Source: Oceanicoccus sagamiensis | GTDB lineage: Bacteria > Pseudomonadota > Gammaproteobacteria > Pseudomonadales > Dasaniaceae | Assembly (NCBI RefSeq): GCF_002117105.1 | Contig: NZ_CP019343.1 | Coordinates: forward strand, 372,001 to 436,000 | Direction of reading: 5' to 3' | Length of the DNA stretch: 64,000 bases | Part shown: one piece after another, positions 1,029-17,815 of the stretch | How the letters are laid out: each line of letters opens with the position of its first letter | How positions within the stretch are numbered: position 1 is the first letter of the stretch | Position numbers and translations under genes: made by a program | Notes under the pieces: model-generated | Databases searched by the model: none | What the model saw: only the letters and a program-made list of their open reading frames with translations | Told to the model about the DNA's origin: nothing

Positions 1029-1053
1029 TATTGGCTGAGTGATAAAAGATAAC

Positions 1054-1080
1054 AAAAAGGCTACCTAAGTAGCCTTTTTT
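1054..1080. terminator. bidirectional terminator between convergent genes
   Basis: GGCTAC (1059-1064) pairs with GTAGCC (1069-1074) around a CTAA loop. An A run on the left and a T run on the right extend the stem and make it usable from both strands. It lies between the stops of the membrane protein (+) and the UbiD-family gene (-). Confidence 0.85.
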
Positions 1081-1108
1081 AATACTGAATTTACCAACAC
1101 GATTAGCG

Positions 1109-2758: not shown

Positions 2759-2891
2759 TAAACACCCTTAATCGAATTTAAAATTTATCCGCTATTTTAC
2801 GTTAGAAGTTAAAGCCGGGATTAGCTCGAATAAGCATATTATTGTAAAGAATTGTATGGTTGTTGCTAACACGTACAGGTGGCGTCGCGGC

Positions 2892-3368
2892 TTATTCAGC
2901 CGCTATCAGCTTATCCAGATAATCCGCACTGGCTTCTTCAATACTGGCGCAAAGCAGCAGCTCTTCGATAATGTGCGGGTCTTCAAGCTGATCGGCAATA
3001 TCACGCCATGCGCGGGCCCCCTGGCGCTCGGCATTGGCCTGAATAGCAAGCTGGTCAATCACTGGCAGAGCCGAGAACACCTGATAATAGGTATCTCTGG
3101 CGGGCTCGATATACTGATTGATCAAGTCCGTATGCTCTGCACTGCTAGCCGGCAACACCGTTTCCACACGGGTGGCAATCTCATCTTCACGCTCGGCGCA
3201 GGCGAGTAAACCCGCTTTATGCTCGGGGAGTTGTATTGCCCAGCCACGATAACGTTCGGCGGCGGTGCGTTCGAGTCTGGATAAAAAAGCCGGCTGAGAG
3301 GCTTCGGGAATGGCACCGATATAAGGGGCGAGTAAACTACCGAAGTCGGGTATGTCGATACGTGTCAT
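2892..3368 (-). CDS. all-helical protein, possibly ferritin-like
   Basis: This 158-residue soluble protein has no signal peptide or membrane segment and appears entirely alpha-helical. I do not recognise it with certainty. Acidic residues are spaced as in a four-helix ferritin-like bundle: ERYRGW near residue 37, EREDE near 59, AERQGARAW near 113 and an IEEASADYL segment near 143. Iron or diiron binding is therefore a reasonable but weak inference. It is read on the same strand as the UbiD-like gene, with 133 bases between them, so co-transcription is possible. The ATG at 3368 has only a weak ribosome site. Confidence 0.7.
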   Translation of the reverse strand: MTRIDIPDFGSLLAPYIGAIPEASQPAFLSRLERTAAERYRGWAIQLPEHKAGLLACAEREDEIATRVETVLPASSAEHTDLINQYIEPARDTYYQVFSALPVIDQLAIQANAERQGARAWRDIADQLEDPHIIEELLLCASIEEASADYLDKLIAAE

Positions 3369-3436
3369 GGTCAGTCCTCTGGCGATGGTAAAAAACGGTA
3401 ACTATGGGGTCGAGTTAATGGTGTCAGAGTTATACC

Positions 3437-4402
3437 TTACTTATCAGTATACCTTTCACGCACCTGCCGCAAGTAACTTTGCGAGACCGGTATCACTTCA
3501 TCATTGTTCAGCACAATCAGGTATTTCGAGCCTGCTTTTTTCACCTGCTTGACGGCGGCGTCGGCCACCCAGTATGAGCGATGTACTTGCATACCCTGAT
3601 GGCATTCCAATTCCATCATCGCTGTACCGAACTTAAAACGAATCAATTCACTGCCAGCGTCGGTCCATACCTTGATAAAGTGCTCTTGGGCATGGACAGC
3701 CTGAAGTTCACCCTGGTTGTTGCTGCTTAATAGTTTTACAAAGCCAGGCTCTGGCCTTGTTGGTATCGGTGCGGGGTCGGTTTGGCTTAAAGGCTCGCCA
3801 TGTTGTAAGTCATAGCGATAAATGGGCTGTTTGAGCGCCGTAGCAAAATAATAGTTTTGCGCGGTAAAGAGCAAGAGATTAGGCGCCATAAAACTTAAGA
3901 AATTAATAAAAAAATCCAAGGACAAGCTCATCGCTAACGGCGATGACTTGCCAATCACCTGCGGCATTAAAGCATTCAAGAACTCGATATAGATATTGAT
4001 CAGATAGGCCCCAAGCCAACTTAATGCCGCGGGCGCTAACAGTGAAACCAACCAGAGGGGGGCACGCCAGGGCTTCATTATTTCAAAACCCAATAGGGCC
4101 GAGGCAATCACCGCAAGCCAACCGAGCTGAAAAAAGCCGACCCAATAAGGTACCAGTACAAAACGGACCATAAGGTCCTGCCCGCCTTGATCTGCTTTAA
4201 ACCAACCAAAATAAACACCAATCAGCACCGGCACCGCACAAAAGTATAGTAGCTTGCGGCTGATTGGCATGGCCATTAGTTGCTGCCATGCCGAGCGTGT
4301 TGTGTGGGTCTGGGTCGTCACTGTGTTTGCCAGTTTGTTATTGGGGGCTTGTCTCACCGTATTTAAGCAACACTTGCCGAACTCATGATACGTCAATCCC
4401 AT
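3437..4402 (-). CDS. membrane-anchored LytTR-family transcriptional regulator
   Basis: The N-terminal two thirds (about residues 45-195) contain four hydrophobic segments. The C-terminal ~95 residues form a LytTR DNA-binding domain, recognisable from the AxxxYI/HFIKVWT-type strand, the MQVHRSYWVA segment and the final PVSQSYLRQVRERY. Membrane-bound LytTR proteins usually bind DNA from the membrane and respond to signals there. The gene is divergent from the alpha/beta hydrolase at 4557 and shares a 154-base promoter region with it, so that gene is a natural target (inference). Translation could also start at an internal Met near residue 43, just before the first membrane segment, because the first 40 residues look unstructured and the ATG at 4402 lacks a clear ribosome site. 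Confidence 0.85.
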   Translation of the reverse strand: MGLTYHEFGKCCLNTVRQAPNNKLANTVTTQTHTTRSAWQQLMAMPISRKLLYFCAVPVLIGVYFGWFKADQGGQDLMVRFVLVPYWVGFFQLGWLAVIASALLGFEIMKPWRAPLWLVSLLAPAALSWLGAYLINIYIEFLNALMPQVIGKSSPLAMSLSLDFFINFLSFMAPNLLLFTAQNYYFATALKQPIYRYDLQHGEPLSQTDPAPIPTRPEPGFVKLLSSNNQGELQAVHAQEHFIKVWTDAGSELIRFKFGTAMMELECHQGMQVHRSYWVADAAVKQVKKAGSKYLIVLNNDEVIPVSQSYLRQVRERYTDK

Positions 4403-4556
4403 TCATAAAACTTGCCAATATGATTCACGAAAAACGCTTATATTTCATGAACTTCAGAGCGCATAATGATTAATCGATTGTATACTGATCTCATAACAAG
4501 CACCAAGCGCCCAACACTAAGCAAGCATAAAACCGTACCAACAAGGACAGGATTGA

Positions 4557-5396
4557 ATGCATATCATCATAAAAAGAACACTCTGGAGCCTACTTATCGC
4601 CGCTTTGGCAATGGTGTTAGTCGCCGTCTCGTTAATGGTGTGGATGGGGGTTGCCAAAAAAGGCATTCCGGGGCCCGATGCAGTTATAGCTCTGGCGGCA
4701 CTGGAGGACAATCCGGCGGTGCAGGCAGACTATGGTGAGCTGTTTACCCTGCGCCCCACAGCGGTAGCACCCAAGGCTGGGTTAATTATCTATCCCGGAG
4801 CCCATGCCGACCCCCGTGCCTATGTGCAAGTGATGACCAGAATTGCCGAAGCAGGCTATCTCGCTGTTGCCACCGAGATGCCTCTCGGCTATGCCTTTCT
4901 GGCACCGGACAGAGCCGAAGATGTTTACCGGGCCTATCCAAACATTCAACACTGGTTCTTAGCCGGCCACTCTCTCGGTGGCGCCATGGCTGGGCGCTAT
5001 GCTGCCACCCATGGCGACAAACTGGCAGGGCTGGCATTTTGGGATGCCTTTCCACCCGATTACAACAGCCTTGCCGATTCTAATGTACCCACCATTATGC
5101 TTTATCGCGCCACATTGGATGGGGAGCCCGAAGAAAAATTTAAAGAGAAACAGCACCTGTTTCCCAAAGCAACGGACTGGGTGCCGATTTTGGGCGGTGA
5201 CCATAAGCAGTTTGGCTCGGGCCAAGGCGGTATGTTTAAAGAGTTTGGTATGTTTATCCGCGGTATGGATGAGCAAGAATGGGAAGCAACCCAGTGGAAG
5301 CCAATGATTAGCCGCGACGAACAACAAGCGATTATCGTCAAGGCGATGCTGGCCTGGTTTGAACAAACGCTAGCGGCGCAAGCAACCGATCAGTAA
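4557..5396 (+). CDS. membrane-anchored alpha/beta hydrolase
   Basis: The 279-residue product begins with an uncleaved membrane anchor (about residues 8-30). An alpha/beta-hydrolase domain of the dienelactone hydrolase/hydrolase-5 type follows. The nucleophile elbow is GHSLGG with Ser139. The probable catalytic His is H216 in GGDHKQFG. The acid is likely the Asp in the FWDAFPPDY region near 163. The catalytic domain should face the periplasm. The substrate cannot be read from the sequence; esters or lactones are typical. AGGACAGG precedes the ATG at a good distance. The gene is divergent from a LytTR regulator and convergent with a LysR gene. Confidence 0.85.
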   Translation: MHIIIKRTLWSLLIAALAMVLVAVSLMVWMGVAKKGIPGPDAVIALAALEDNPAVQADYGELFTLRPTAVAPKAGLIIYPGAHADPRAYVQVMTRIAEAGYLAVATEMPLGYAFLAPDRAEDVYRAYPNIQHWFLAGHSLGGAMAGRYAATHGDKLAGLAFWDAFPPDYNSLADSNVPTIMLYRATLDGEPEEKFKEKQHLFPKATDWVPILGGDHKQFGSGQGGMFKEFGMFIRGMDEQEWEATQWKPMISRDEQQAIIVKAMLAWFEQTLAAQATDQ

Positions 5397-5421
5397 AGCA
5401 AAATAAGTGATTAAAGTGCAC

Positions 5422-5440
5422 TGCCTGCCAACAACAGGCA
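5422..5440. terminator. small hairpin between convergent genes
   Basis: TGCCTG (5422-5427) pairs with CAGGCA (5435-5440) around a 7-base loop, between the stops of the hydrolase (+) and the LysR gene (-). There is no T run, so its role as a terminator is uncertain. Confidence 0.35.
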
Positions 5441-5478
5441 TGGCTCTTAGCGGGAAAACATTAGCCCTATTAAGCCTC

Positions 5479-6351
5479 TTACTTAAGGCAGGCCATGGCC
5501 TCAGCAATTACCGTATTCACCCTATTAGGCAAGACTTTATTGCGATCAACAGCAAGGTACAGTGTTTCACGAATTTGATGGGGCAAACGATGTACGGTAA
5601 CCGCCGCTGTGTTGCCAAACGCTTCAATCGCATAAGTGGGCAATACCGTAAAGCCCAAGCCCATACAGACCGGCTCAAGGATTAAGTTGACCTGATTAGA
5701 AAACCCCGCCGAATCAAACTGCTTCACATGCTGAAACTCGGGATAGTTGGCACTTAAAAGCAGACCGGCGTGATAAGCCCCATCAGGGTGATCGATAAAA
5801 CCCAGAGCCATTAGTTGCTTCCAACTGGGCGTATTGATGCCTGCCGGCGTGATTAAACGCAACTCTTCCTCAGCCACCGCTGTAGAACTGATATCGGCCA
5901 AGGTTGAGGGACTGGTCATAAAGCCTATATCAACACTATTCTCCGCGATCAGCTGCTCAACACTAGCGTTAGGCGCAAAGCGATAATCAATCACCAGTTT
6001 GGGATGTTGTTGCTGCACGGTTAAGAGATGACGGTAAAGCTTGAGCCCCATACTACCCGGTGAAGCAATCCGCACCACGCCCTCATAAGCCGGATTAGCC
6101 CCCACCCGCATTTCAATCCCGGACAAGGCACTGATCACCTCCCGGCCTTCGAGGTAGAGGTTGTCTCCAGCATCAGTCAGCGTAAAGCTCTTGCCATGCC
6201 TGACCAGCAAAGGGCAGCCCAGATGGTCTTCCAATTTTCGTACATGCTGGCTAACGCCTGACTGTGTCATATTCAACTGCTCAGCGGTACGGGTGAAATG
6301 GCCTATTTCAACCAGGGTACAGAAGCTGCGTAACCAGACAGGGTTAATCAT
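5479..6351 (-). CDS. LysR-family transcriptional regulator
   Basis: At 290 residues this has the standard length. An N-terminal winged helix-turn-helix occupies about residues 1-60 (the LRSFCTLVEIGHFTRTAEQLNMTQSGVSQH region is typical). The C-terminal part is the usual two-lobed effector-binding domain. The regulator is divergent from the VOC-family gene at 6447 with 95 AT-rich bases between the start codons. In the LysR family the divergent neighbour is most often the regulated gene, so control of that gene is inferred. The effector is unknown. Confidence 0.92.
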   Translation of the reverse strand: MINPVWLRSFCTLVEIGHFTRTAEQLNMTQSGVSQHVRKLEDHLGCPLLVRHGKSFTLTDAGDNLYLEGREVISALSGIEMRVGANPAYEGVVRIASPGSMGLKLYRHLLTVQQQHPKLVIDYRFAPNASVEQLIAENSVDIGFMTSPSTLADISSTAVAEEELRLITPAGINTPSWKQLMALGFIDHPDGAYHAGLLLSANYPEFQHVKQFDSAGFSNQVNLILEPVCMGLGFTVLPTYAIEAFGNTAAVTVHRLPHQIRETLYLAVDRNKVLPNRVNTVIAEAMACLK

Positions 6352-6446
6352 TATAAAATGTACTCATAATAATAATAAATGATAATTTTACATAATTTAA
6401 CATCCTCTGTAACCTAGCTTCAACCTAAACGAAGGAGCAAACCATC
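6352..6446. promoter_or_regulatory. divergent promoter region, LysR / VOC gene
   Basis: This is a 95-bp, strongly AT-rich stretch between the start codons of the LysR regulator (-) and the VOC protein (+). It includes a run of AAT repeats near 6368-6380. It must hold both promoters and the LysR site, but I see no single unambiguous palindrome. GAAGGAGC directly upstream of 6447 is the ribosome site of the VOC gene. Confidence 0.6.
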
Positions 6447-6947
6447 ATGAGCAACGTATACCCACGCAATTTCTCGCATATCGGCATTTCAGTGCCTGAC
6501 CTGGACAAAGCCGTTAAGTTTTATACCGAAGTGATGGGCTGGTATCTGATTATGGAGCCCACTGAAATTGTTGAAGACGACAGTGCGATCGGCGAAATGT
6601 GTACCGATGTCTTTGGTGGTAATTGGGAGAAATTCCGAATTGCTCACCTCTCAACCGGTGACCGTATTGGTGTCGAAATCTTTGAGTTTAAGAATCAGGT
6701 TAACCCGGAAGATAACTTTGAGTACTGGAAGACTGGTGTATTCCACTTCTGTGTTCAAGACCCCAATGTTGAAGAACTGGCGGAAAGAATTGTCGCCGCG
6801 GGTGGTAAAAAACGGATGGAGAAACCCCGTTACTATTATCCGGGAGAAAAACCTTACCGCATGATTTATATGGAAGATCCATTTGGCAATATTCTGGAAA
6901 TCTACAGCCATAGCTATGAGCTGGTATACAGCGAAGGCGCTTATTAA
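6447..6947 (+). CDS. VOC (glyoxalase/dioxygenase fold) family protein
   Basis: The 166-residue protein has the paired beta-alpha-beta-beta-beta modules of the vicinal-oxygen-chelate superfamily. Four candidate metal ligands sit at the canonical positions: H11 (FSHIGI), E77 (GVEIFEF), H100 (VFHFCV) and E151 (ILEIYSHS). The DPFGNILEI segment is diagnostic. The His/Glu/His/Glu set suits glyoxalase I-like isomerases or related lyases and epimerases rather than extradiol dioxygenases. The substrate is not determined. A strong GAAGGAG site precedes the ATG. The gene is divergent from a LysR regulator that probably controls it, and it ends before a long hairpin. Confidence 0.87.
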   Translation: MSNVYPRNFSHIGISVPDLDKAVKFYTEVMGWYLIMEPTEIVEDDSAIGEMCTDVFGGNWEKFRIAHLSTGDRIGVEIFEFKNQVNPEDNFEYWKTGVFHFCVQDPNVEELAERIVAAGGKKRMEKPRYYYPGEKPYRMIYMEDPFGNILEIYSHSYELVYSEGAY

Positions 6948-6961
6948 TAAAGCCCGGTAAA

Positions 6962-7005
6962 ACTCGTGAGGCCTGATGCAGTGATAGATAACAGGCCTCA
7001 CTAGT
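6962..7005. terminator. long inverted repeat between convergent genes
   Basis: GTGAGGCCTG (6966-6975) pairs perfectly with CAGGCCTCAC (6992-7001) around a 16-base loop. An outer ACT/AGT pairing extends it after one mismatch. It lies between the stops of the VOC gene (+) and nei (-). There is no T run, but the stem is GC-rich enough to act in both directions. Confidence 0.6.
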
Positions 7006-7045
7006 ATTGATACGCTGCTGCTCTGTTTCGGATAATGGGTTCTGA

Positions 7046-7864
7046 TTAAGTCTGGCAGCCACCGCAATAAAAAAGATTTCTGGCATTGGCCTCTATCCGT
7101 TTGACTGGCTGCCCACACAGATGACATAGCTTAGCCTCACGGCCAAATACGGCAAAACGGGCTTGTTCAAAGGATAAACCACCTTTAAGCAACTGACGAT
7201 AGCGCTTAACAGGCTGTGTCACCCCCTCCATTTTATAACTGCGCTGACTAATAGCCAGTGTCTGCCTCCCTAAGCGAGCTCGCTGTGCGGCGTTTAATTC
7301 CCTGGCCTTTAACAAGGGGTTAATGCCTGCTGCAAATAAAATTTCTGAACGCAAATAATTACCAATACCCGCTAAAAAAGCCTGATCCAGATAGAGCGAT
7401 GACAAACTTTTACCGGAAAACTGGCGCTCTTGTAATCGCTTGTCTATTGCTTTGGCCGTCAGTGCCGGGCTGAGAATATCTGGCCCTATTTTGCTTAAAA
7501 AATGATGCGCCCATAAATTCTCTGTTTGCCAAACGCTGATATCACTGGCGCTATATAACAGAGCACTGTGATCATCGGTATGTAGGGCCACCCTGAGTTT
7601 CCGCTGTGTCTCAGGCAGCTCACCGCGAGGCATAATATACCAACGGCCATAGAGCTGGTTATGGGAATATAATGACCAGCCATGGTCAAAATGTGTCAGC
7701 AAGGCTTTACCCCGTGTCTCAACAGATAGCACGGTATGGCCTTGCAAAGTTTTATTATGCTTGCTGAGCTTGGGCTGCATCAATTGAACCTTTGCCATAG
7801 CCTGCCCTTTGAGTACTTGCTCAATACTATCGGCGGCGCGTCTGATCTCGGGCCCTTCTGGCAT
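7046..7864 (-). CDS. nei: endonuclease VIII (Nei), DNA glycosylase/AP lyase
   Basis: The 272-residue product removes oxidised pyrimidines from DNA and nicks the abasic site by beta,delta-elimination. The start is fixed at 7864 because the family needs Pro2-Glu3 right after the initiator Met: MPEGPEIRRA follows a GGGAG site at good spacing. A further in-frame start 33 bases upstream would bury the catalytic proline. The helix-two-turn-helix region and the C-terminal zinc finger (CHLCGQ ... FYCGGCQT, four Cys) are intact. The gene lies 63 bases downstream of the photolyase on the same strand, so photoreactivation and base excision repair are probably co-transcribed. Confidence 0.93.
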   Translation of the reverse strand: MPEGPEIRRAADSIEQVLKGQAMAKVQLMQPKLSKHNKTLQGHTVLSVETRGKALLTHFDHGWSLYSHNQLYGRWYIMPRGELPETQRKLRVALHTDDHSALLYSASDISVWQTENLWAHHFLSKIGPDILSPALTAKAIDKRLQERQFSGKSLSSLYLDQAFLAGIGNYLRSEILFAAGINPLLKARELNAAQRARLGRQTLAISQRSYKMEGVTQPVKRYRQLLKGGLSFEQARFAVFGREAKLCHLCGQPVKRIEANARNLFYCGGCQT

Positions 7865-7927
7865 ACATACTCCCGTAGCAAAGCTCTGTATAAGCACTGA
7901 ATATACGTTTGCGAACCTGTTCGGGAT

Positions 7928-9355
7928 TTAATCCAGCGCTTTAAAATGTTGAATGGCTAATTGCCTGCTTAAACCCAGGTCAACCATCGGCGCGGGATAG
8001 TCGGTTTGACTAAAAAGATCCAAGGGGGGCTGATGTATTTCCCGATTATCCAGATGGCGAAGCTCAGGGACAAAGCGACGAATAAATTCGCCATCCGCAT
8101 CAAATCTTTGCCCCTGTACGACAGGATTAAATACCCTAAAATAGGGCACAGCATCCGTGCCTGTAGAAGCCGACCATTGCCAGCCCCCATTATTGGATGC
8201 CAAATAACCGTCGATTAAATGCTGCATAAAAAACCGCTCGCCCCAGCGCCAATCAATCAATAAATTTTTACTGAGAAACATGGCGGTCACCATTCTTAAG
8301 CGGTTATGCATCCAACCGGTTTCCAGCAGCTGTCGCATTGCCGCATCGACAATCGGTATACCGGTCTGCCCCGTACACCAACGCTGAAAATCCTTTTTGT
8401 CATAACGCCACGGTAGCTTTTCTGTTTTTGCCTTAAACGCTTGATGCTGGCTAACACGGGGAAAGAGATCAAGAATATGGATATAAAAATCACGCCAGAT
8501 AAGTTCATTGATCCAGCACTGGATCTCCTTGTCTTCGCCCGCGCTTATATTCTGCAAGGCTTGATAAGCCACCTTTAAACACTGCCGGGGTGATAGTACG
8601 CCAATCGCCAAATAGGGTGACAGTGAGCTGGTGCCCTCTATAGAAGGAATATCCCGGCGCTGTTGATAACACCTTAAGGAGGCGTCGGCAAAGGCGGTGA
8701 GTTGTTTATAAGCAGCCGCTTCACCGGCTGGCCAACGGATCGGCGGAGCAGGTGCTAAATAAAAGTGCTGCTTATCAATTGGGTCAGGTTCAATCGGTAG
8801 TCTGGCTTGAGTTTTTATCCGGGGCGCAATGCCTGGCGGCCATGGCAACTGCCTGCGCCATTGTTTGCTAAAGGGTGTAAAGACTTGATAGGGCGAGCCA
8901 TCCGCTTTAGTCACCGTGCCCGGCGCCAATACCGTCTGGTCGTGAAAAAAATGACACTCAATAGCGGACGCTGACAACTGGCTCTGACACTCAGCGTCAC
9001 GTTGTTTTTCATTAAAACCATATTCGGCGTTGGCAAAAATATGGGTCACATTGCAGGACTGGCACAGTGATAATAAAGCGGCGGGCAGCTGTTTAAAGTC
9101 CGCCACGGTCACTATTTTTAGTGGTATGCCTTTATCCAGTAATTGCTGCTGCAAGCAAAGCAGGTTGTTGTAAATAAACTGCGCCTTGATGGCTGACATA
9201 TCATGTTCGCGCCATTGCTCAGGTGTTATAGCAAAGCAAGCGATCAGCGGATTTCCTAAAACGCTAGCGGCCTGTAGCGCCGTATTATCATGGATGCGCA
9301 GGTCTGAGCGAAACCAGATAAGGGTGTGGCTTGGGTTATGGTTCATGGTCGACAT
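7928..9355 (-). CDS. phrB: deoxyribodipyrimidine photolyase (class I cryptochrome/photolyase family)
   Basis: The 475-residue flavoprotein splits UV-induced cyclobutane pyrimidine dimers using blue light. The N-terminal antenna-binding Rossmann domain opens with TLIWFRSDLRIHDNTAL. The C-terminal FAD domain has the class I signatures, including GIPIVDAAMRQLLETGWMHNR, the WSAS-TGTDA segment and the PYFRVFNP region. Length matches E. coli PhrB (472). Translation may start at Met1 or Met4; neither has a strong ribosome site. Only 39 bases separate it from the upstream B12-binding protein, and nei follows, so it belongs to a light/DNA-repair block. Confidence 0.94.
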   Translation of the reverse strand: MSTMNHNPSHTLIWFRSDLRIHDNTALQAASVLGNPLIACFAITPEQWREHDMSAIKAQFIYNNLLCLQQQLLDKGIPLKIVTVADFKQLPAALLSLCQSCNVTHIFANAEYGFNEKQRDAECQSQLSASAIECHFFHDQTVLAPGTVTKADGSPYQVFTPFSKQWRRQLPWPPGIAPRIKTQARLPIEPDPIDKQHFYLAPAPPIRWPAGEAAAYKQLTAFADASLRCYQQRRDIPSIEGTSSLSPYLAIGVLSPRQCLKVAYQALQNISAGEDKEIQCWINELIWRDFYIHILDLFPRVSQHQAFKAKTEKLPWRYDKKDFQRWCTGQTGIPIVDAAMRQLLETGWMHNRLRMVTAMFLSKNLLIDWRWGERFFMQHLIDGYLASNNGGWQWSASTGTDAVPYFRVFNPVVQGQRFDADGEFIRRFVPELRHLDNREIHQPPLDLFSQTDYPAPMVDLGLSRQLAIQHFKALD

Positions 9356-9394
9356 AGGAATGGGGTTGCTGGCGGTTAAACGGTGGCAGACGGC

Positions 9395-10477
9395 TTATCG
9401 GCTATCACTGACTTGCTGACGGCTATCCAGCAGACTATTGGCCAACTCTAAAGCCTGATCAGCAGACGTTGCAAAACCATCAGCACCGACTTCTTTCCAT
9501 AAATCCGGTGCACCGGTAAAGCCATTGCCCCCCACCATCACATAGGTCGGCCGTGTACTTTCGCTGCGAATAGCAGCGATGGTTTTGCGTAAGGTTTTGA
9601 CTTGTGCATGCAGGCCAATCGATAACAGCACGACATCGGCATTAAAGCAATTGATGGTCACCGGTAAATCAGCAGCGGGCACATCGGAGCCCAGGTAGAT
9701 GGTTTTCCAGCCGTCAAATTCCAATAAATAAGCAATGGTGCGAATCCCTAATTCATGGGCATTACCGGAAACAGCAGCGGCAATAACCGTCATACCGTTA
9801 TCCGGCTCGCGCTGCTCCATCTGTGCCAATACCGCCATCAGGCGATGGGTGGTGGTGGTCACTAAATGCTCTTCGGCGACCGACAGTTTATTCTCATGCC
9901 ACAACCGTCCTACTTCGACTTGTGCCGGTAATAACACATTAAGGTAAGCCTCTTTAACCGAGAGACCATTTTCAACCTGATCAATCACCGTATCCATACC
10001 CGCATAGACATTGCCTACCACGACGGACTGCAGGTATTGCAAAGCAATACGTTTAAAATGGCTACCCGGGTCAAGCGCCCTGATATCAGCCACTGGCTGA
10101 TCATTATCATCGATGGCGTTTTCTATCTCCAGATAAGTATTGATCAGTGACTGCTCGCTGGTATTTACATACTGCAATAAAGCGGTACGGAAACAATCGA
10201 CGCTATGGCGTAAATCATCCGATGCTAAAGAGCGGGCTTGCATAGCTTGTCGGGACCACTGAATACTGCTCAGAAATATCCTCGGTTCCCCTGCAATTAA
10301 CGCGGCAGTTAGCTCATCGACTCGATTAGAAAAATAATCTATCCAGAGACTTTGAGTATTGTCACCGAAACGCTCCTGTAGCGTCGTATCAGCTAACGAT
10401 AAATGTTGAAAAGCAAACTCTGCAATCGCAGCACGGTTGTTTTCAAGATGCTTTGCCACATCGTTATTAGTCGTCAT
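9395..10477 (-). CDS. cobalamin-binding photoreceptor-like protein without a DNA-binding domain
   Basis: The 360-residue protein has an unrecognised helical N-terminal domain (about 1-150), a four-helix B12 cap (about 150-225) and a Rossmann-like B12-binding domain (about 228-350). The cap carries the Wx9EH motif of CarH/LitR light sensors (W193, E203, H204). The B12 domain carries a His ligand in NAHELG (H241), then LSIGL near 286 and VGGNG near 315. This is the DxHxxG...SxL...GG pattern, except that Asn239 replaces the usual Asp/Glu. No MerR-type helix-turn-helix is present, so it probably signals by protein contact, as AerR/PpaA-type sensors do (inference). It starts 1 base after the RND pump stop and lies 39 bases before the photolyase, suggesting light-linked control of this operon. 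Confidence 0.85.
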   Translation of the reverse strand: MTTNNDVAKHLENNRAAIAEFAFQHLSLADTTLQERFGDNTQSLWIDYFSNRVDELTAALIAGEPRIFLSSIQWSRQAMQARSLASDDLRHSVDCFRTALLQYVNTSEQSLINTYLEIENAIDDNDQPVADIRALDPGSHFKRIALQYLQSVVVGNVYAGMDTVIDQVENGLSVKEAYLNVLLPAQVEVGRLWHENKLSVAEEHLVTTTTHRLMAVLAQMEQREPDNGMTVIAAAVSGNAHELGIRTIAYLLEFDGWKTIYLGSDVPAADLPVTINCFNADVVLLSIGLHAQVKTLRKTIAAIRSESTRPTYVMVGGNGFTGAPDLWKEVGADGFATSADQALELANSLLDSRQQVSDSR

Positions 10478-10478
10478 A

Positions 10479-13400
10479 TTATTTCGGTTCCGTTGCTTTA
10501 TTTAATTCGCTCAACGTTGTAATGGTCATGGGAGAGTTTTGTGTCAAGGGCTGCGCACTGGCGGCCGCCAGTACATCAGCGACGTGATTTATCTCGGCAC
10601 CATCGTCACGGTCACTGCGGATGCGGCTGAAGCGGGTCCGGATAGAATCCAGACCGACCAATAAGGCAGGCAATAAAAACAAGACAATAAAGGTGCCAAA
10701 TAAGAGGCCAAAACTAATCGAAATAACCATGGGCTTTAGGAACTGAGCCTGCTCGGCCTGTTCAAATAACAGCGGTGCAATACCAACAATCGTGGTAAAC
10801 GAGGTTAAGAAAACCGCCCGTAAACGCTTGCTGCCCGCCTCAACCGCGGCATCAAACGCTGCAAGACCTTTTTCCCGCAATTCCTGATAAACCACAATTA
10901 AAATAATCGAATCATTAATCACAATGCCGCAGAGGCCGAAGATACCAAAGAGGGACAGCATGGTGACATCAACGCCTAAGATCCAGTGCCCCACAATAGC
11001 GCCAACAATACTGAAAGGAATAATGCTTAGTACCGCCACCGGCCAAAGATAGGAACGAAATACCCAGGCCAAAATAATAAAGATCATAATAATAGATAGC
11101 GGCAGTGCCAGTTTGATATCACCCACGCTTTCACTCTGGTCCTGTGCCCTACCCCGGTTTTTCCAGCTAATACCGTATTTAGCCACTAATTGCGGTAGTA
11201 CATCCCGCTGTAGTTGGCCACGGATTGCATTGGCGTTATTGACTTTGGAATCCACATCAGCACTGACCCGGACCGCCAGCAAACCGTTTTCATGCTTGAG
11301 GTCATCAAAGCCACGGCTAACACTTAAGTTAGCCAGATTGAGTAGCGGTGAAGTATCACCTGAGGGCAAAGCGATGGGTAATGAGTCCAGCGATTGCGAA
11401 CTTTCACGGGCGCTGCGTTCCAATCTTACCCGCACTTCCACTTCGCTACCCTGATCCTGGAAAATCTGGATTAACTCACCCTCAAAGTTGGCGCGAATTT
11501 GTTCACCCAGATTCTGCCCGGTTAAACCCAACGCTCGGCCCACCGAAGACAGTTCAAAAATCAGTTGTTCTTTGCCGTAATTTAAATCATCACGGGGCGC
11601 TGAAACACCATCATACAAGGCTATTGATTCTTGTAAGTCGACTGCGGCCAGTTTTAACACGTCAGGCGAAGCGCCGGTCAGCTCCAAATCAATATCCGCA
11701 CCGGGCACACCGCCACGGCTGGTTTTAATCAGGAAGAACTCCAGCCCCGGCGTATCAGGAATACGTTTTTTCCAGGCCCGGACTAATTCAGAATTGCTGG
11801 TACGACGCAAATCACCCGGCGTTAATTCGGCAACAATCTCGCCAATATTGGAGCCTCTAACACCTCTATTGGTTTCATTTTGTCGGGTCAGAACCAGCTT
11901 AATAAATTGCTCGCCAGTTTCCTGTTCTGCTTCAAATAAGGCCTGCTTGGCCTGCATCATAAAGGCTTCAACCCGTTCTGGTGGTGAGCCCGCGGTAAAA
12001 CGAGCGCTAGCGGTCACAGTGGAACCATCAGGTTGCGGGAAGAAAGAAAAACCGACTTTGCCACCACCCAATAACCCAAACACAAATAGGATACCGGCAA
12101 TCGACGCTGCCAGAGTAGTACGACGGTTGGCAACACACCATTTGGCTGCGGGGATATAACGCTCTTTACGAAAGCGGTTAAAGGCCGTATCAACCCGTCG
12201 GCGCAAGTTGCTGGTTTGATGCTGGGAAGAAACTTTTAAGGAATGATGAAGATGACCGGGCAAAACAATAAAACATTCCAGCAACGAAGCCATCACCACA
12301 CAGATAACCACCAATGGAATAGCAAATAAAATAGACCCAGTGGAGCCGCCGATGGTCATTAAAGGTAAAAAAGCAGCAATGGTGGTTAAAGACGCAGCGG
12401 TGACTGGCGCCAACATTTTCATGGCTGCCTTTTCCGCAGCGCGGGCCGGTGAAGCCCCCTGCTGATAAAGGGTAACGGCCTCTTCACTAACCACTATCGC
12501 ATCATCAACAATAATGCCCAGCGTCATAATCATAGCAAACAAAGTCATAACATTGATGGTACCGCCAAAGAAGCTTAGCGCCATCAATGCCATTAAAATA
12601 GACACCGGAATACCCGCCGCCACCCAAATCGCTACCCGACCATTGAGAAATAAATATAAAATACCCAATAGCAGTAACAAACCCGTTGCCGCATTGGAGG
12701 TCATTAAATTAATCCGCTCATCCACATTGCGCCAAATTTCATCGTAAATCATCAGCTCAATATTGGGCGGCAAATCTGCTCTGGACTGCTCAACCCACTG
12801 CTGCATATTTTCAGCAACATTAATGGCATCTTCAGTTTCGGAACGGGTTACAACAATTTCTACCGCAGGATTACCTCCGGCAAAAATCATCGCAGAATTT
12901 TCTTTAGGGGCACGTTTAATCGTGGCGATATCCCCCAACCTTAATAAGCGGCCACTGCCATCGGTACTAATAGCCAGCTGCGAAAAACCGGCAACGGAGC
13001 GCTGCTGATCCAGACTGCGCAGTTGCCGCGACATATCTTTTTCGCCAATTGCACCTGCGGGAAGATTAATACTGGCACCCCTAACCTGCTGGGCAATATC
13101 AGACAATGACAGTTTGAGTTCATTTAAACGCTCAGCCGGTAGCTCAATAGAAATTTCTTCTTCGGGTAGGCCTTTAATTTCAATCCGTGATAAACCGCGG
13201 GCCCTTAACTCACGTTCAAAGCGTTTGCTAATGGGGCGTAGCTGTTCTAACTGCGGGCCCGTCAGAACAATACGGGATACCCCTTCGTTTCTGTCGTAAA
13301 TAGAAATTTGAGGTTGTTCAGAACCGGAGGGTAAATTTCTTATCAGCGAAACGGCATTTTTTACCTCATTGAGAGCCGCACTCATATCAGTACCCTGTGG

Positions 13401-13688
13401 GTACTCCAACGTAACCGTGGCAAGGTTATCGGTTGAGGTTGAACTGATATTCCTGACCTCATCAAGGCCCAGTAACTGGTCTTCAATCGGCTGGGTTAAC
13501 GAGGCCTCAACATCTTGCGCGGCAGCTCCAGGCCACTGTACAGAGATGGTAATAATATTCAGCGCAAAGGCTGGCAATAACTGACGGGTTAATTGTGTGC
13601 TGGCCCATAAGCCCGCAAGCACCATAACTATCATGGCCAAATTAGGCGCCACAGGGTTGCGAACAAAGGTTTTTATCAGATTATTCAT
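10479..13688 (-). CDS. RND-family efflux pump, inner-membrane subunit
   Basis: The ~1069-residue protein is a full-length proton-driven exporter of the HAE1/AcrB class. The N-terminal membrane helix (LAMIVMVLAGLW), the large periplasmic loops and two sets of membrane segments are present. The paired aspartates of TM4 (IIVDDAIVVSEE, near residue 395) carry the proton relay. I chose the ATG at 13688 (MNNLIKTFVRNP, the usual family start), which overlaps the adaptor stop by 8 bases. GTG and ATG codons 9 and 6 bases upstream are alternatives. The B12-binding gene begins 1 base after its stop, so translational coupling is likely. The substrate is unknown, and no outer-membrane channel gene is present in the window. 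Confidence 0.93.
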   Translation of the reverse strand: MNNLIKTFVRNPVAPNLAMIVMVLAGLWASTQLTRQLLPAFALNIITISVQWPGAAAQDVEASLTQPIEDQLLGLDEVRNISSTSTDNLATVTLEYPQGTDMSAALNEVKNAVSLIRNLPSGSEQPQISIYDRNEGVSRIVLTGPQLEQLRPISKRFERELRARGLSRIEIKGLPEEEISIELPAERLNELKLSLSDIAQQVRGASINLPAGAIGEKDMSRQLRSLDQQRSVAGFSQLAISTDGSGRLLRLGDIATIKRAPKENSAMIFAGGNPAVEIVVTRSETEDAINVAENMQQWVEQSRADLPPNIELMIYDEIWRNVDERINLMTSNAATGLLLLLGILYLFLNGRVAIWVAAGIPVSILMALMALSFFGGTINVMTLFAMIMTLGIIVDDAIVVSEEAVTLYQQGASPARAAEKAAMKMLAPVTAASLTTIAAFLPLMTIGGSTGSILFAIPLVVICVVMASLLECFIVLPGHLHHSLKVSSQHQTSNLRRRVDTAFNRFRKERYIPAAKWCVANRRTTLAASIAGILFVFGLLGGGKVGFSFFPQPDGSTVTASARFTAGSPPERVEAFMMQAKQALFEAEQETGEQFIKLVLTRQNETNRGVRGSNIGEIVAELTPGDLRRTSNSELVRAWKKRIPDTPGLEFFLIKTSRGGVPGADIDLELTGASPDVLKLAAVDLQESIALYDGVSAPRDDLNYGKEQLIFELSSVGRALGLTGQNLGEQIRANFEGELIQIFQDQGSEVEVRVRLERSARESSQSLDSLPIALPSGDTSPLLNLANLSVSRGFDDLKHENGLLAVRVSADVDSKVNNANAIRGQLQRDVLPQLVAKYGISWKNRGRAQDQSESVGDIKLALPLSIIMIFIILAWVFRSYLWPVAVLSIIPFSIVGAIVGHWILGVDVTMLSLFGIFGLCGIVINDSIILIVVYQELREKGLAAFDAAVEAGSKRLRAVFLTSFTTIVGIAPLLFEQAEQAQFLKPMVISISFGLLFGTFIVLFLLPALLVGLDSIRTRFSRIRSDRDDGAEINHVADVLAAASAQPLTQNSPMTITTLSELNKATEPK

Positions 13689-15057
13689 TGGCATCACCGG
13701 CCAGTGATAGCGGTGTTAGAGTATCTAAAGCCGCTTGCTGCGCAGGCAAAAGTTTGGACTCTTTGGCAATGGCCTGATCACTGCTTAATACGATTTTTAC
13801 CAGTAAGCCATCAGTGGCATTGGACAGCTTAGTGGTAATAATTTGGTCACCGGGATTAAACTGGTCGGAACGAATTAATACCTGCGTTCGACCATCGGGC
13901 AAGCGACTTTCACCCAGGCGATTAACCTCCAACATTTGCATACGTCCATCGATCACCCGGTAGACATTATTATTGCCATAGATGGCTTCTGCGGGTACGG
14001 CAATCACATCGGCTATAGCTGGCAACTGGACTTGTATTCTTACGGTGCTACCCAGACTCAAACCTAAAGGTGCCCGCTGAAAACCAATAAAACTATCAAC
14101 ACCACCGCTGGACTCACGGGTTAAACCGGACACGCGAATCATTTGCCCCTCAATAAAGGTGTTATCTTTGGCCCCCGACCGCGAGGAAGCTAAAGCGACG
14201 CTGGCGGGTACCAGCAAACCTTGCTCAATACTATTGCGCAGTGACTTGGCATAGAGCGACGGAATTTGTGCCCGTATTTCCATTGCGTCAGGATTTTGTA
14301 TTCTTAAAATAGGATCGCCATAGCGTACTCGGTCACCCAGAGAAATACTTAACTCTGACACCACGCCATTAAACGGTGCCACAATGGTGGCGCGCTCAAG
14401 CTCTAGAGCGGACTTATCCCGTTTGGCGGTCAGTCTGGCCAACCTGGCTTCCAGTTCAATATTTTTCGACTGGTTTTCTTGCATCACCAATTCCGCTTTG
14501 CTAACGGCTAACTCCTGACGAGTTAAGTTTTCTGTGGCCGCATCAAAGTCACTTTGTGAAAGCACATTTTTCTTAAACAGGTCTTGTGAGCGTTTATAGC
14601 GAGACTGGGTGATTTTTAACAGGCCCTGCTCTTTTTGATAGGCTGACTCCGCCTGGGTATAGCGCAAGCTGGTCAGTTTGAGTTGAGCACCGGCTTCTTT
14701 TAAATCCGCCTCACTTTCAATTACACTCAGCTGGGCATCTCTATCATCCAGCCGGGCCAGAACCGTACCTTGCAATACAGTATCACCATCGCTTACCAAC
14801 AACTCACTGACCACAGCCTCAATACCTGCCGACAATTGACTGTCCTGAGGGGATTGCACCTGCCCGATTAAAGCAAGGCTTGGGCTCATCGATGCAGGCT
14901 GGGCCTCGATAATATTCACTACCCAGGATTTTTCCTGCCGGGGTGTGGGTGGTTTTTCAGAGCGCGAAAGAATTAACACAAACATTAGCAATACCCCCAC
15001 AGAGAGTATCTGCAGTGGCCTGCTTTGGGGGATAAGTTTGGCTAAACGCTGTTTCAT
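13681..15057 (-). CDS. RND efflux periplasmic adaptor (membrane fusion protein)
   Basis: This protein links the RND pump to an outer-membrane channel. One N-terminal membrane anchor (about residues 16-32) is followed by a lipoyl half (LIGQVQSPQDSQLSAGIEAVVSELLV), a long coiled-coil hairpin (about 90-210), the second lipoyl half (ATIVAPFNGVVSELSISLGDRV) and beta-barrel/membrane-proximal domains. I place the start at the ATG at 15057 (MKQRLAKLIP), because the 23 residues that an upstream start at 15126 would add are unlike the family. An AGGA lies about 11 bases before it. It is the first gene of the run adaptor, pump, B12 sensor, phrB, nei, so the promoter should lie in the gap to its right. 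Confidence 0.9.
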   Translation of the reverse strand: MKQRLAKLIPQSRPLQILSVGVLLMFVLILSRSEKPPTPRQEKSWVVNIIEAQPASMSPSLALIGQVQSPQDSQLSAGIEAVVSELLVSDGDTVLQGTVLARLDDRDAQLSVIESEADLKEAGAQLKLTSLRYTQAESAYQKEQGLLKITQSRYKRSQDLFKKNVLSQSDFDAATENLTRQELAVSKAELVMQENQSKNIELEARLARLTAKRDKSALELERATIVAPFNGVVSELSISLGDRVRYGDPILRIQNPDAMEIRAQIPSLYAKSLRNSIEQGLLVPASVALASSRSGAKDNTFIEGQMIRVSGLTRESSGGVDSFIGFQRAPLGLSLGSTVRIQVQLPAIADVIAVPAEAIYGNNNVYRVIDGRMQMLEVNRLGESRLPDGRTQVLIRSDQFNPGDQIITTKLSNATDGLLVKIVLSSDQAIAKESKLLPAQQAALDTLTPLSLAGDANE

Positions 15058-15519
15058 TGTTATTGAATTCCTGACTAAGGTGATAATGCAGTGACAACAA
15101 AAGTGCATTGTGTAATGTACGCGCAATAGCTTGATTTAGATTGCCAACCATCATGACCACGGCCATCCAGGGCCAATCAGTGATTGGGATAAATTCGGCA
15201 ACACTAAGCCGACATCCGGCAGTATCGATAGAGAGGGGTATTGGGCCAGTATAGAATAAGACTCAGGCTGTTCTCGAACAGTAGGATTCGAGGCCAATAA
15301 ACCACAAAATCAATCACTTACCGGTATTAAGACTGAAAGGCATGGCGCTGGCTCAGGGTTGTCGTTAGCGTTGCTCTGGCCACAATACAAGCAGTGAACC
15401 CATGCACCGCCTTTACGGCCACTTTTAACAACCCAACTGTCCCTTTTTGAATGCCCAATATCACCAGCATACTATAGAATCAGAAGCAAAATACATAGAA
15501 CAAGTATGAGGGAGTTAGT
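15058..15519. promoter_or_regulatory. 462-bp divergent intergenic region, RND operon / PNPOx-like gene
   Basis: This region separates the divergent RND adaptor (-) and PNPOx-like (+) genes and should hold the promoter of the whole RND-B12-phr-nei run. The only clear symmetric element is the palindrome at 15268-15281. Short open frames inside have no codon signal. I do not see a B12 riboswitch: no recognisable B12-box fold could be traced by eye. Confidence 0.55.
15268..15281. promoter_or_regulatory. perfect 6-bp-arm palindrome, possible operator
   Basis: CTGTTC and GAACAG are separated by two bases, giving a compact dyad about 210 bases upstream of the RND adaptor start and 240 bases upstream of the PNPOx-like gene. 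It resembles SOS-type boxes in flavour, but the half-site spacing does not match E. coli LexA. It could bind a regulator of either divergent unit. Confidence 0.35.
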
Positions 15520-16119
15520 ATGAGCGGAATGCGTGACCATGAGGTTGTTTCAATTTATCCATTTAATGAGCAAGAAGTGGATACCTTGATGGGGACAGCC
15601 ATTGAAAGTGTTTTAATGTGGGCGACAAAAGATGGCTGGCCGATTGGTGTTAACCATGCGTTTCTCTGGCGTGATGGCAAGATCTGGTTGACCTTTGCTT
15701 CTCACCGCCACCGTGCTGCTGCCATTCGACGTGATAATCGGGTGTCTGTGAGTGTCAGTTCGGCCACTTATCCAGAAGGTACCTCTAAGGAACTACCTCA
15801 GGGCGGTATCACGTTTAAAGGTACCGGTGAATTTTTCGATGATGAAGACACCAAAGGCTGGTTTTATCAGTCGCTGGTGGAGAAGACTCATCCGGGTGAT
15901 GCGGCCATGCAGGAAGTGTTTAAAGGTATCCTTGACTCACCACTTCGCACCATTCTTTGTGTTACACCAGTTAAGAAGATTATGTATAACAGCTCACTGG
16001 TCGCCAAGCATGCCAGCGGTGAGGTCGGCGAAGACGCGTTAGGGCCACGGCTTAGCAGTGACAAAGACCGCCTGGAAAGCAACTATAAGGATAAAGGCCT
16101 CAAGCGCGACGAGTCTTAA
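15520..16119 (+). CDS. PNPOx-like (FMN/F420 split-barrel) family protein
   Basis: The 199-residue protein has the split-barrel fold pattern of the pyridoxamine-phosphate-oxidase-like superfamily. The strands GWPIGVNHAFLWRDGKIWLTFA and the segment HRHRAAAIRRDNRVSVSVSS are typical of FMN- or F420-dependent members that reduce small molecules or bind flavin. The C-terminal ~50 residues are polar and probably extended. The substrate cannot be inferred. GGGAG lies before the ATG at 15520. The gene is monocistronic: divergent from the RND operon and closed by a repeat-rich hairpin region at 16127-16201. Confidence 0.82.
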   Translation: MSGMRDHEVVSIYPFNEQEVDTLMGTAIESVLMWATKDGWPIGVNHAFLWRDGKIWLTFASHRHRAAAIRRDNRVSVSVSSATYPEGTSKELPQGGITFKGTGEFFDDEDTKGWFYQSLVEKTHPGDAAMQEVFKGILDSPLRTILCVTPVKKIMYNSSLVAKHASGEVGEDALGPRLSSDKDRLESNYKDKGLKRDES

Positions 16120-16126
16120 GCGCACC

Positions 16127-16180
16127 ATCGATAGCCACGCAGGTATCGATAACCACAGCAGTATCGATGATCAGGCAGAG
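16127..16180. repeat. three degenerate 18-bp tandem repeats
   Basis: Three units beginning ATCGAT start at 16127, 16145 and 16163, exactly 18 bases apart. The first two share most positions (ATCGATA-CCAC-CAG-T). The third diverges after ATCGAT and forms the left arm of the hairpin at 16162-16201. The repeats start 8 bases after the stop of the PNPOx-like gene. Confidence 0.7.
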
Positions 16181-16201
16181 CCTAACACCTGATCATCGAT
16201 A
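16162..16201. terminator. strong 14-bp hairpin between convergent genes
   Basis: TATCGATGATCAGG (16162-16175) is the exact reverse complement of 16188-16201, with a 12-base loop. It lies between the stops of the PNPOx-like gene (+) and the SDR gene (-). It is AT-flanked without a long T run. A bidirectional terminator or RNA-stabilising structure is the likely role. Confidence 0.65.
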
Positions 16202-16207
16202 TATTAG

Positions 16208-16966
16208 CTATGAAGATGTAAGCCCGCCATCAACCGTTAATACGCTACCATTGCAGTAAGAACTATCATCTGATGCCAGAAATAAGGCCGCCTTTGCCAT
16301 TTCATTCGGTGAGGAAAAACGCCCTAAAGGAATTCTTGGCAGAAAAGAATTATCTTCGCCGTCTTGCTCGCCGCTATTATCTTCGTTGTAATTGTCCAGC
16401 ATTGGAGATTCCACACCGCCCACGGCAATGGTGTTAACCCGGATCTGCCTTGCACCCGCCTCAATCGCAGCCGCTCGACCCAGGCCGATAACGGCATGCT
16501 TGCTGGTGACATAGGCGGACATCATCCCCACCCCAATCACTCCCGCACCGGAGCTGCATAAGATAATGCTGCCACCGGCTGTCATTACCGGCATAGCCTC
16601 ACGCAGCCCCAACCACATACCGCGGATATTACTATTTTGAACCGTATCCCATTCCTCTTCCGTCATTTCAGTCAGGGCTTTTATCGGCCCCGGAATACCG
16701 GCGAGGGCGTAAAAGATATCGAGACGGCCATAACGCTCAAGGGCCGTGTTAACCATCAGTTGGTTGCCAGCAGCGGTGGCGATATCGGCCGCGACATAAC
16801 TGACTCTGTCAGTGGCCATCTCTTCGGCTGCTTTGGCCAAGGCCTGCTCATTGCGCGCCACCATTAAAACATTGGCACCTTCTTCGGCGAAGACTTTAGT
16901 GGCTGCAAGGCCAATCGTGCCTGAGGCACCGGTAATGATCGCTGTTTTGCCAGCTAGTCTAGCCAT
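16208..16966 (-). CDS. short-chain dehydrogenase/reductase (classical SDR)
   Basis: The ~252-residue NAD(P)-dependent oxidoreductase has the glycine-rich cofactor motif TGASGTIG (near residue 12), the catalytic Ser in ILCSSGAGV and the YVTSK catalytic Tyr/Lys motif. The C-terminus (CNGSVLTVDGG) is typical of FabG-like classical SDRs. The start at 16966 is chosen because AGGAG sits 8 bases before this ATG, whereas an in-frame ATG 27 bases upstream has no ribosome site. The gene lies 72 bases downstream of an NTF2/SnoaL-like gene on the same strand, a pairing common in steroid, terpenoid and polyketide catabolism. The substrate is unknown. Confidence 0.9.
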   Translation of the reverse strand: MARLAGKTAIITGASGTIGLAATKVFAEEGANVLMVARNEQALAKAAEEMATDRVSYVAADIATAAGNQLMVNTALERYGRLDIFYALAGIPGPIKALTEMTEEEWDTVQNSNIRGMWLGLREAMPVMTAGGSIILCSSGAGVIGVGMMSAYVTSKHAVIGLGRAAAIEAGARQIRVNTIAVGGVESPMLDNYNEDNSGEQDGEDNSFLPRIPLGRFSSPNEMAKAALFLASDDSSYCNGSVLTVDGGLTSS

Positions 16967-17038
16967 TGATACGTCTCCTGATGATATGTCCATAGGCGGG
17001 TAGATATTCTGTAAGAGGGGGTTTAAATACAGCGGTAT

Positions 17039-17536
17039 TTATTGGGCAGCGCGGGCCTGGGCCTTTTCGAATAAATTCGCGTTGCCTCGGGTATAGTGCA
17101 CATCGAGCTGTGAGCGCACAATCTTCCAGCGCCCATCCTGCTCTTGATAGTCATTAATATATTCCCCCGCCAAGGTCACATAATCATCATCGCCAGCGTG
17201 CGGGTTAGTCGGGTCCACAAAAATCATATGGTCCGCCAGTAGATAGGCCCGGCAGCTCACTCTGTCTCGGTGCATCGTGATACGGTGGTTGGTAATGGTA
17301 TGGCGAGTAATATCAAAGCCATTGATAGCCGCTTGTAATACCGCCACCCAATCATCCGCAGGACGCGGTTTATCCATCGGCCCCGTGGCAGCACTTAGCT
17401 CACCATAATCCAGCATAATGTTCTCGGCAAAGCATGAACGCACCAAAGCCCAATTTTTAGTATCAATACCTTCAGCGTAGGCGTTGTACGATTTAACCAG
17501 CTCGGCTTTTAACTGATCCATATCCTGAAATGACAT
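17039..17536 (-). CDS. SnoaL/NTF2-like family protein
   Basis: The 165-residue protein has the cone-shaped NTF2-like fold pattern of SnoaL_4-type proteins: an N-terminal helix with YAEGIDTKNWALVRSCFAENIMLDYG, a central HTITNHRITM strand and a final DGRWKIVRSQLDVHY strand. Family members include dehydratases, isomerases and hydroxylating-dioxygenase small-subunit-like proteins acting on ring substrates. His and Asp residues in the predicted pocket (HTITNHRI, ADHMIF) suit acid-base catalysis, but no reaction can be fixed. It is first in a two-gene unit with the downstream SDR and divergent from the secreted DUF3604 gene. Confidence 0.82.
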   Translation of the reverse strand: MSFQDMDQLKAELVKSYNAYAEGIDTKNWALVRSCFAENIMLDYGELSAATGPMDKPRPADDWVAVLQAAINGFDITRHTITNHRITMHRDRVSCRAYLLADHMIFVDPTNPHAGDDDYVTLAGEYINDYQEQDGRWKIVRSQLDVHYTRGNANLFEKAQARAAQ

Positions 17537-17815
17537 AAGTTCTACCTATTATTTTTTTATGGCCTGCGAAGGAATAATCCATGGTAACTACTCCCTGGTA
17601 AGCCTACGATACCATATCATCATTCAAGGTGCCGAGCCCCAAGCCCATCAAGTTAGCTTGACACAGAGAGCGCAGCGTTTAATGGGGAAACCTGTCACCT
17701 TGAATTCCATACGCGCTTTATTCCAAGCCAACACAAAGCCAGCCCAAATCATAGACATTCACTCCAGAACTGTAATATCCTCAGGCCACATTTTTCAAGA
17801 TCAAGGGATAGCGCT
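17537..17815. promoter_or_regulatory. divergent promoter region, NTF2-SDR / DUF3604
   Basis: These 279 bases separate the NTF2-like gene (-) from the DUF3604 gene (+) and should hold both promoters. I see no strong palindrome or RNA structure. AAGGGA about 10 bases before the ATG at 17816 is the probable ribosome site of the DUF3604 gene. Confidence 0.5.

Follow-up and report, generated by a model that had tools for sequence, protein, structure and literature searches.

Within the window, the 64,000-nucleotide stretch of Oceanicoccus sagamiensis DNA analysed here, the open reading frame at 9395–10477 (minus strand) encodes a protein of 360 residues, P0001, which on Pfam, profile and model evidence is a photoglobin–B12 protein, that is, a photocobilin architecture with the globin in front. 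From its sequence and predicted fold we consider it probable that P0001 is a soluble light sensor of this architecture, built of a globin and a CarH-type AdoCbl domain, that has B12 as its main chromophore, acts through protein contact and plays a part in photoprotection. Photocobilins are already divided into groups with an N-terminal and groups with a C-terminal AdoCbl domain (PMC10979010), so both domain orders are in print and the N-terminal globin of P0001 is not new; the photoglobin family itself was named by Schneider et al. 2022 (via PMC11796333 and PMC10151467). What looks new, judging from the alignments, is not the domain order but the branch to which P0001 belongs. This branch may already be visible in published networks, our literature search having covered the main texts of open papers.

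The C-terminal part of P0001 is readily assigned. Pfam detects B12-binding (2.7e-16) and B12-binding_2 (1.3e-11), far beyond chance, and locates the two halves of the B12 domain at residues 162–217 and 230–343. Together with the model, these matches delimit a helical part at residues 139–224 (9806–10063, minus strand), which carries W193, H194 and E203-H204, and a Rossmann B12-binding fold at residues 225–352 (9422–9805, minus strand) with the His ligand H241. The residues singled out by the initial annotation (W193, E203, H204, N239 and H241) all lie where it had placed them, and the light-response signature of B12 domains, GxxW, EH, GxxH and GxxxP (PMC11796333), is complete (G190-W193, EH at 203–204, G238-H241 and G263-P267), which bears out its recognition of a light-type B12 module. 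The replacement of Asp/Glu by Asn239 beside the His ligand is equally real, but it is a group trait rather than a peculiarity of P0001, Asn being found in 17/24 members of the branch defined below and in 7/30 other relatives. The model of the whole protein has a pLDDT of 93.6 and a pTM of 0.89.

The N-terminal domain (residues 1–125; 10103–10477, minus strand) was assigned with a family profile and a model of the domain alone. At its cut-offs Pfam names no domain in the first 136 residues, and its HTH families give no match there at E <= 1, in agreement with the earlier view that a helix-turn-helix is lacking. Taken singly, the P0001 domain also scores weakly against individual models (E 0.1 for the Pfam Phycobilisome family; i-Evalue 21 for a second stretch matched to 8j2w), so that the globin assignment rests on the family profile and on the fold. 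A profile of 50 such N-terminal domains, built without any solved photocobilin and searched against all PDB sequences, has as its top matches the globins of SasPcob (8j2w, 2.1e-12) and AbPcob (8j2y, 5.7e-8), with phycobilisome proteins and smURFP coming next; the Phycobilisome model reaches E <= 1 in 18/50 of the profile members, at best 1.4e-7. As controls, a profile built without P0001 recovers it at 6.8e-21, and one made from the 27 profile rows outside the branch recovers it at 6e-12 and retrieves 24/24 branch members, the weakest at 1.9e-4 (search size 1000 in both cases), with no match among 28 other B12-domain proteins of the same order (L008–L035). Five of these 28 were scanned: four (L009, L010, L015 and L031) have a MerR HTH and one (L011) has no named N-terminal domain.

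The fold agrees with the profile. Modelled alone, the domain has a pLDDT of 89.6 and takes on a phycobiliprotein-like globin fold, with no DNA-binding fold found. It superimposes on allophycocyanin chains with Z 16.4–16.6 and rmsd 2.1 over 125 residues, and on the photocobilins 8j2x and 8j2y with Z 13.8 and 13.6 (VIA-align). The 50 VIA-align matches listed are phycobiliproteins, smURFP or designed bilin proteins, or photocobilins; Foldseek lists proteins of the same kind, none at E < 0.001 (best 2.2e-3). An RsbR-type globin is absent among the matches listed by either program, an absence that excludes nothing. By profile and predicted fold, then, the domain that had been taken as unknown, or as different in kind, belongs to the photoglobins, phycobiliprotein-like globins whose pairing with B12 domains in photocobilins is established. 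Such proteins are rare in the order as sampled, full-length matches occurring in 2/390 genomes, that of O. sagamiensis and one other (G007).

Among solved structures, the best relative by sequence is SasPcob of Saccharothrix syringae (8j2w/8j2x, 3.5e-25), which has the same two domains, stands alone and has no enzyme or HTH domain. Its B12 domain (CBD) is 29% identical to residues 139–352 of P0001 and superimposes with Z 27.1 and rmsd 1.7 over 208 residues. The two proteins differ in that the globin is C-terminal in SasPcob and N-terminal in P0001, Asp270 is replaced by Y48 and the Gln after the CBD Trp by H194, whereas the equivalent of Trp296 is kept (W74). AbDPcob, an Acidimicrobiaceae photocobilin-diguanylate cyclase (8j2y), shares the two domains and likewise does without the bilin Asp (it has His), but its globin is C-terminal and is accompanied by a fused diguanylate cyclase, neither of which applies to P0001. 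The same domain order and a similar length are found in N-terminal photoglobin–B12 proteins of the Azospirillum, Ilyobacter and Shewanella type (L004, L006, L007 and L085 among others). Two Azospirillaceae plasmid genes for photoglobin–B12 proteins (L005:8974-10026 and L004:8908-9969) are annotated merely as "cobalamin-dependent protein", and the second of them adjoins genes for a histidine kinase and a response regulator.

CarH and LitR share with P0001 a CBD with W-H, EH and the His ligand, but carry a MerR HTH where P0001 has the globin. The NCBIfam CarH model gives P0001 66.7 bits of the 400 needed, and the P0001 CBD groups apart from five CarH/MerR-type CBDs with SH-aLRT 99 (L013 among them; MerR is confirmed by scan for L009, L015 and L031). 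AerR acts by protein contact, binding CrtJ, and AerR/PpaA resemble P0001 in being B12-domain proteins without an HTH. The initial annotation had compared P0001 with this pair as a protein-interaction sensor. The interaction part probably stands, but AerR itself (7te2; Z 20.8, rmsd 3.3 against the CBD) is a weaker structural match than SasPcob; and since 203 of its 205 residues align to the CBD, it leaves no room for a globin.

We then compared P0001 with its relatives column by column. The collected set comprises the 80 relatives most like P0001 that a single peptide pattern, with EH and T in it, retrieved, so that the invariance of E203, H204 and T207 is partly built in and all proportions describe a sample, not a census. 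Loci were admitted when the match started at or before residue 70 and the frame was 320–430 aa long with no internal stop, which left 49/80; the 31 others were CBD-only, overlong calls, cut or broken frames, or too diverged in the N-terminal domain (15 of them still carry the globin by profile but lie outside the column counts). With P0001 itself and L003, L004, L006 and L007 this gave 54 full-length aligned rows, L005 being excluded as an overlong call.

A branch of 24 rows was picked by W45 (10343–10345, minus strand) together with Arg, Lys or Ile at position 52; W45 is absent from the other 30 rows, where Cys prevails (18). The remaining bilin-site columns differ between the two sets as well. 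Position 48 (10334–10336, minus strand), which corresponds in the alignment to Asp270, the residue that holds biliverdin in SasPcob (AbPcob has His here), is acidic in 23/30 of the others and in 0/24 branch rows, where it is His (12), Asn (4), Gln (4), Tyr (2, including P0001), Phe (1) or Trp (1). R52 of P0001 (10322–10324, minus strand) is Arg in 22/24 branch rows and His in 28/30 elsewhere, and position 55 is Glu/Asp in 23/24 (E55 in P0001) as opposed to Tyr/Phe in 27/30. The photoglobin motif is given as CXQD (PMC10151467), whereas P0001 reads W45-I46-D47-Y48, so that the acidic residue at the bilin nitrogen site is missing. Asp270 is described as the key biliverdin residue of SasPcob and Trp296 as contacting both B12 and the bilin (PMC10979010); the counterpart of the latter at the bilin/corrin contact, W74 (10256–10258, minus strand), is invariant (54/54).

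The branch is also recovered without the columns used to pick it. In a tree of the B12 domain only, all 24 rows fall on one side of a branch, with support 100/99 in a careful tree that leaves out the long CarH/MerR rows and L101, and SH-aLRT 89 in a quick tree that includes the CarH/MerR rows. P0001 forms a subclade with L003 and L036 (support 100/93). The B12 domain differs too: a His directly after the CBD Trp, equivalent to His132 of CarH, occurs in 18/24 branch rows, including P0001, in which W193-H194 is matched to the W-H pair of Thermus CarH, and in 2/30 others. Upon illumination of CarH this His takes the upper coordination position on the cobalt (PMC10442372). L003, from the same genus and 49–50% identical to P0001, has Gln at 194, so bis-His ligation would not be constant even within the genus.

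Genomic neighbours separate the same two sets. A GGDEF, kinase or receiver gene lies within 2.5 kb of 28/30 genes outside the branch and of 0/24 inside it (tblastn with seeds taken from the loci themselves; Fisher 2e-13, a statistic that ignores shared ancestry). The flank is shorter than 2.5 kb for P0001 and L003 (~1.5 kb on each side), L036 (2.3 kb downstream), L038 (0.6 kb) and L058 (0.1 kb), and likewise for eight rows outside the branch; for P0001 (window) and L003 (locus L116), the ORF lists, inspected partly by eye, hold no GGDEF or kinase gene beside the sensor. Branch members instead adjoin genes for ECF sigma factors (L038, L039 and L045), a SpoIIE-type protein (L044), PAS-LuxR proteins (L054, L056 and L057) or RND transporters (P0001, L003 and L036), the regulators being identified by Pfam in L038, L044, L045 and L054 and by similarity in L039, L056 and L057; the remaining 14 members have none of the tested neighbour types. 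In two of these loci, MAGs with the same upstream genes, the ECF sigma gene starts 8 bp past the photoglobin–B12 gene (L038:7352-7897 and L039:4861-5406), a candidate for direct sensor-to-sigma control. In a planctomycete MAG the SpoIIE-type phosphatase gene (L044:8411-9940) lies 33 bp before the branch member.

The gene of P0001 stands in a tight, putatively co-transcribed row on one strand, in the order membrane fusion protein (MFP), RND, sensor, photolyase, Nei. An AcrB/MexB-like RND efflux transporter (10479–13697, minus strand) has its stop codon 1 nt before the sensor ATG and is preceded by the HlyD-family membrane fusion protein of the pump (13681–15126, minus strand; Pfam). A deoxyribodipyrimidine photolyase, the only FAD_binding_7 match of the genome (7928–9355, minus strand), lies 39 bp downstream of the sensor, and endonuclease VIII (Nei; 7046–7897, minus strand; ORF list and family match) 30 bp past the photolyase. 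The step from RND to sensor is kept in 3/3 subclade members, with the 1-nt spacer in P0001 and 4-nt overlaps in G007 (the L003 sensor) and in L036, a contig labelled as a Rhodospirillales MAG, where the overlap depends on the starts called; the MFP gene precedes the RND gene in all three. In G007 the RND gene beside the sensor (L116:9189-12403) is split over two overlapping frames.

The photolyase, considered as a conserved partner, was rejected: photolyase and Nei queries match none of the other loci (115 loci, E <= 1e-8), and within the genus a photolyase lies elsewhere in G007 and occurs without the sensor in G004 and G005. The cytosolic tail of the RND protein, considered as a docking site, is a weak candidate; by eye, the three pumps linked to a sensor seem to have longer C-terminal tails than several paralogues do, but the tail of L036 is unlike the other two. 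Rfam finds no family at gathering threshold in 6800–15700, the cobalamin riboswitch included. Between 6900 and 15600 there are 16 promoter-like sites (12.9, sd 3.4, in shuffles) and 17 terminator-like sites (9.8, sd 3.3), none of the minus-strand terminator-like sites listed falling between sensor and photolyase. No paper pairing a cobalamin-dependent photoreceptor with an RND transporter was found in the literature search, which covered the main texts of open papers, and the main text of PMC10979010 nowhere mentions photolyase, efflux, operon or heme oxygenase.

From its sequence, P0001 is most likely an AdoCbl light switch that acts by protein contact, perhaps without a bilin. In the dark, AdoCbl placed between W193, E203-H204 and H241 would hold a dimer together; green light would break the Co–C bond, the adenosyl group would leave and the dimer or domain arrangement would change, upon which H194 may become the upper cobalt ligand in the manner of CarH His132. 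Because P0001 has no DNA-binding or enzyme domain, the output would be contact with another protein and not with DNA; there is a precedent in a stand-alone photocobilin whose contact with a diguanylate cyclase alters the enzyme, differently in the dark and in the light (PMC10979010). The globin may serve as an interface, or bind a partner, or hold another ligand. Since the bilin site is rewritten (W45, Y48, R52 and E55), the chromophore is probably B12 alone or mainly B12. The tight same-strand row that the sensor gene shares with those of the RND pump, photolyase and Nei makes control of a response protecting against light or photodamage the likely role.

Several other readings bear on these points. 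P0001 could be a two-chromophore photocobilin that senses red light as SasPcob does, with biliverdin or another bilin bound to its N-terminal globin in addition to B12. The phycobiliprotein-like fold and the invariant W74, aligned with SasPcob Trp296, speak for this, and AbDPcob still shows ~20% biliverdin occupancy although it has His at the Asp270 site (PMC10979010), so loss of the Asp is no proof of bilin loss. Against this, position 48 is Tyr and not Asp, W45, R52 and E55 stand in place of the commoner C45, H52 and Y/F55, and neither a PF01126 heme oxygenase nor a PHY domain was found in the genome; we regard a second, bilin chromophore as rather unlikely. Bilin loss through missing heme oxygenase in the branch genomes was considered and discarded, because PF01126 is as frequent there (7/23 searched genomes) as in the others (7/26, three of the seven being weak matches); L085, L004, L006 and L007 are not part of this count, and absences in it are soft since completeness is not given for 48/49 genomes, many of them MAGs. 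A more radical reading, in which a separate globin–B12 class has given up the bilin, rebuilt the pocket (W45, non-acidic 48, R52 and E/D55) into a docking or small-molecule site, moved the B12 switch towards CarH bis-His chemistry and, in this lineage, become a sensor that is translationally coupled to the RND transporter, attaches to this pump and puts efflux under the control of light, strikes us as improbable.

For the AdoCbl switch favoured here, the partner could be a regulator encoded elsewhere through which the sensor controls its own operon (pump, photolyase and Nei), in the manner of AerR and CrtJ. Such control is a real possibility, although we hold it tentatively: 7/24 branch members adjoin regulator genes (ECF sigma, SpoIIE or PAS-LuxR) and a search of the genome with P0001 finds no second CarH-like protein, but the gene row has no regulator gene of its own, and the nearby LysR (5479–6351) and LytTR (3437–4402) genes are not conserved beside the sensor, queries with them against the collected loci giving one distant LysR-like match (L071) and no LytTR match. 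That P0001 serves as the corrinoid carrier of a methyltransferase or as a subunit of a B12 mutase, an identity that the initial annotation had set against its photoreceptor reading, is far less probable. The NCBIfam models MtgC (3.4e-16) and MtbC (3.5e-13) do match, and the structure of the MetH B12 domain superimposes well (Z 22.5); however, methyltransferase and mutase models all score far under their curated cut-offs (59.4 of 370 for MtgC and 49.5 of 350 for MtbC), W193 and the complete light signature are present, and Pfam identifies no methyltransferase among 15 further genes scanned in the window (207–19768), those at 207–1028 and 2892–3368 having no Pfam match.

The genome, a single contig with an estimated completeness of 100, contains a CobO/BtuR adenosyltransferase gene, consistent with AdoCbl as the presumed cofactor. 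Searched with P0001 at E up to 10, it yields no second CarH-type sensor, the sole other match (E 0.08, in a 1238-aa frame) being probably MetH. Photocobilins have been presented as broad-spectrum sensors that use two chromophores to control enzymes. A branch with a rewritten bilin site, a CarH-type upper His in 18/24 members and different neighbours would show that the globin can have a function besides holding a bilin and would provide a clean contrast for working out how the two chromophores are coupled, while the gene row would allow a direct test of light control over an efflux pump and DNA repair.

Five relatives have a gene for a small ABM-type protein directly before the photoglobin–B12 gene, with GGDEF/kinase genes on the other side (L073:3096-3419, L085:9513-9821, L094:9653-9952, L098:336-704 and L103:301-600). 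The five ABM genes form one similarity cluster, four being identified by Pfam and that of L098 by the cluster, and all five sensors keep D48. The ABM protein of L073 has as its best match TT1380, of unknown function (2.2e-11), followed by heme-degrading monooxygenases (yhgC/HmoB from 1.1e-7, MhuD-type ~6e-7 and IsdI 4e-5). The catalytic Asn of HmoB/IsdG seems to fall on Ser in this alignment, so heme degradation is unproved; it is possible, on these similarities, that the ABM proteins supply the D48 relatives with their own bilin or heme product. The literature search, again of main texts of open papers, found no paper pairing a photocobilin with a heme oxygenase or heme-degrading enzyme. Finally, in the window itself, the product of the gene at 3437–4402, on the same strand as the sensor and ~2.6 kb beyond the nei 3' end (7046), has a C-terminal LytTR DNA-binding domain and an N-terminal part that, by eye, looks membrane-bound.
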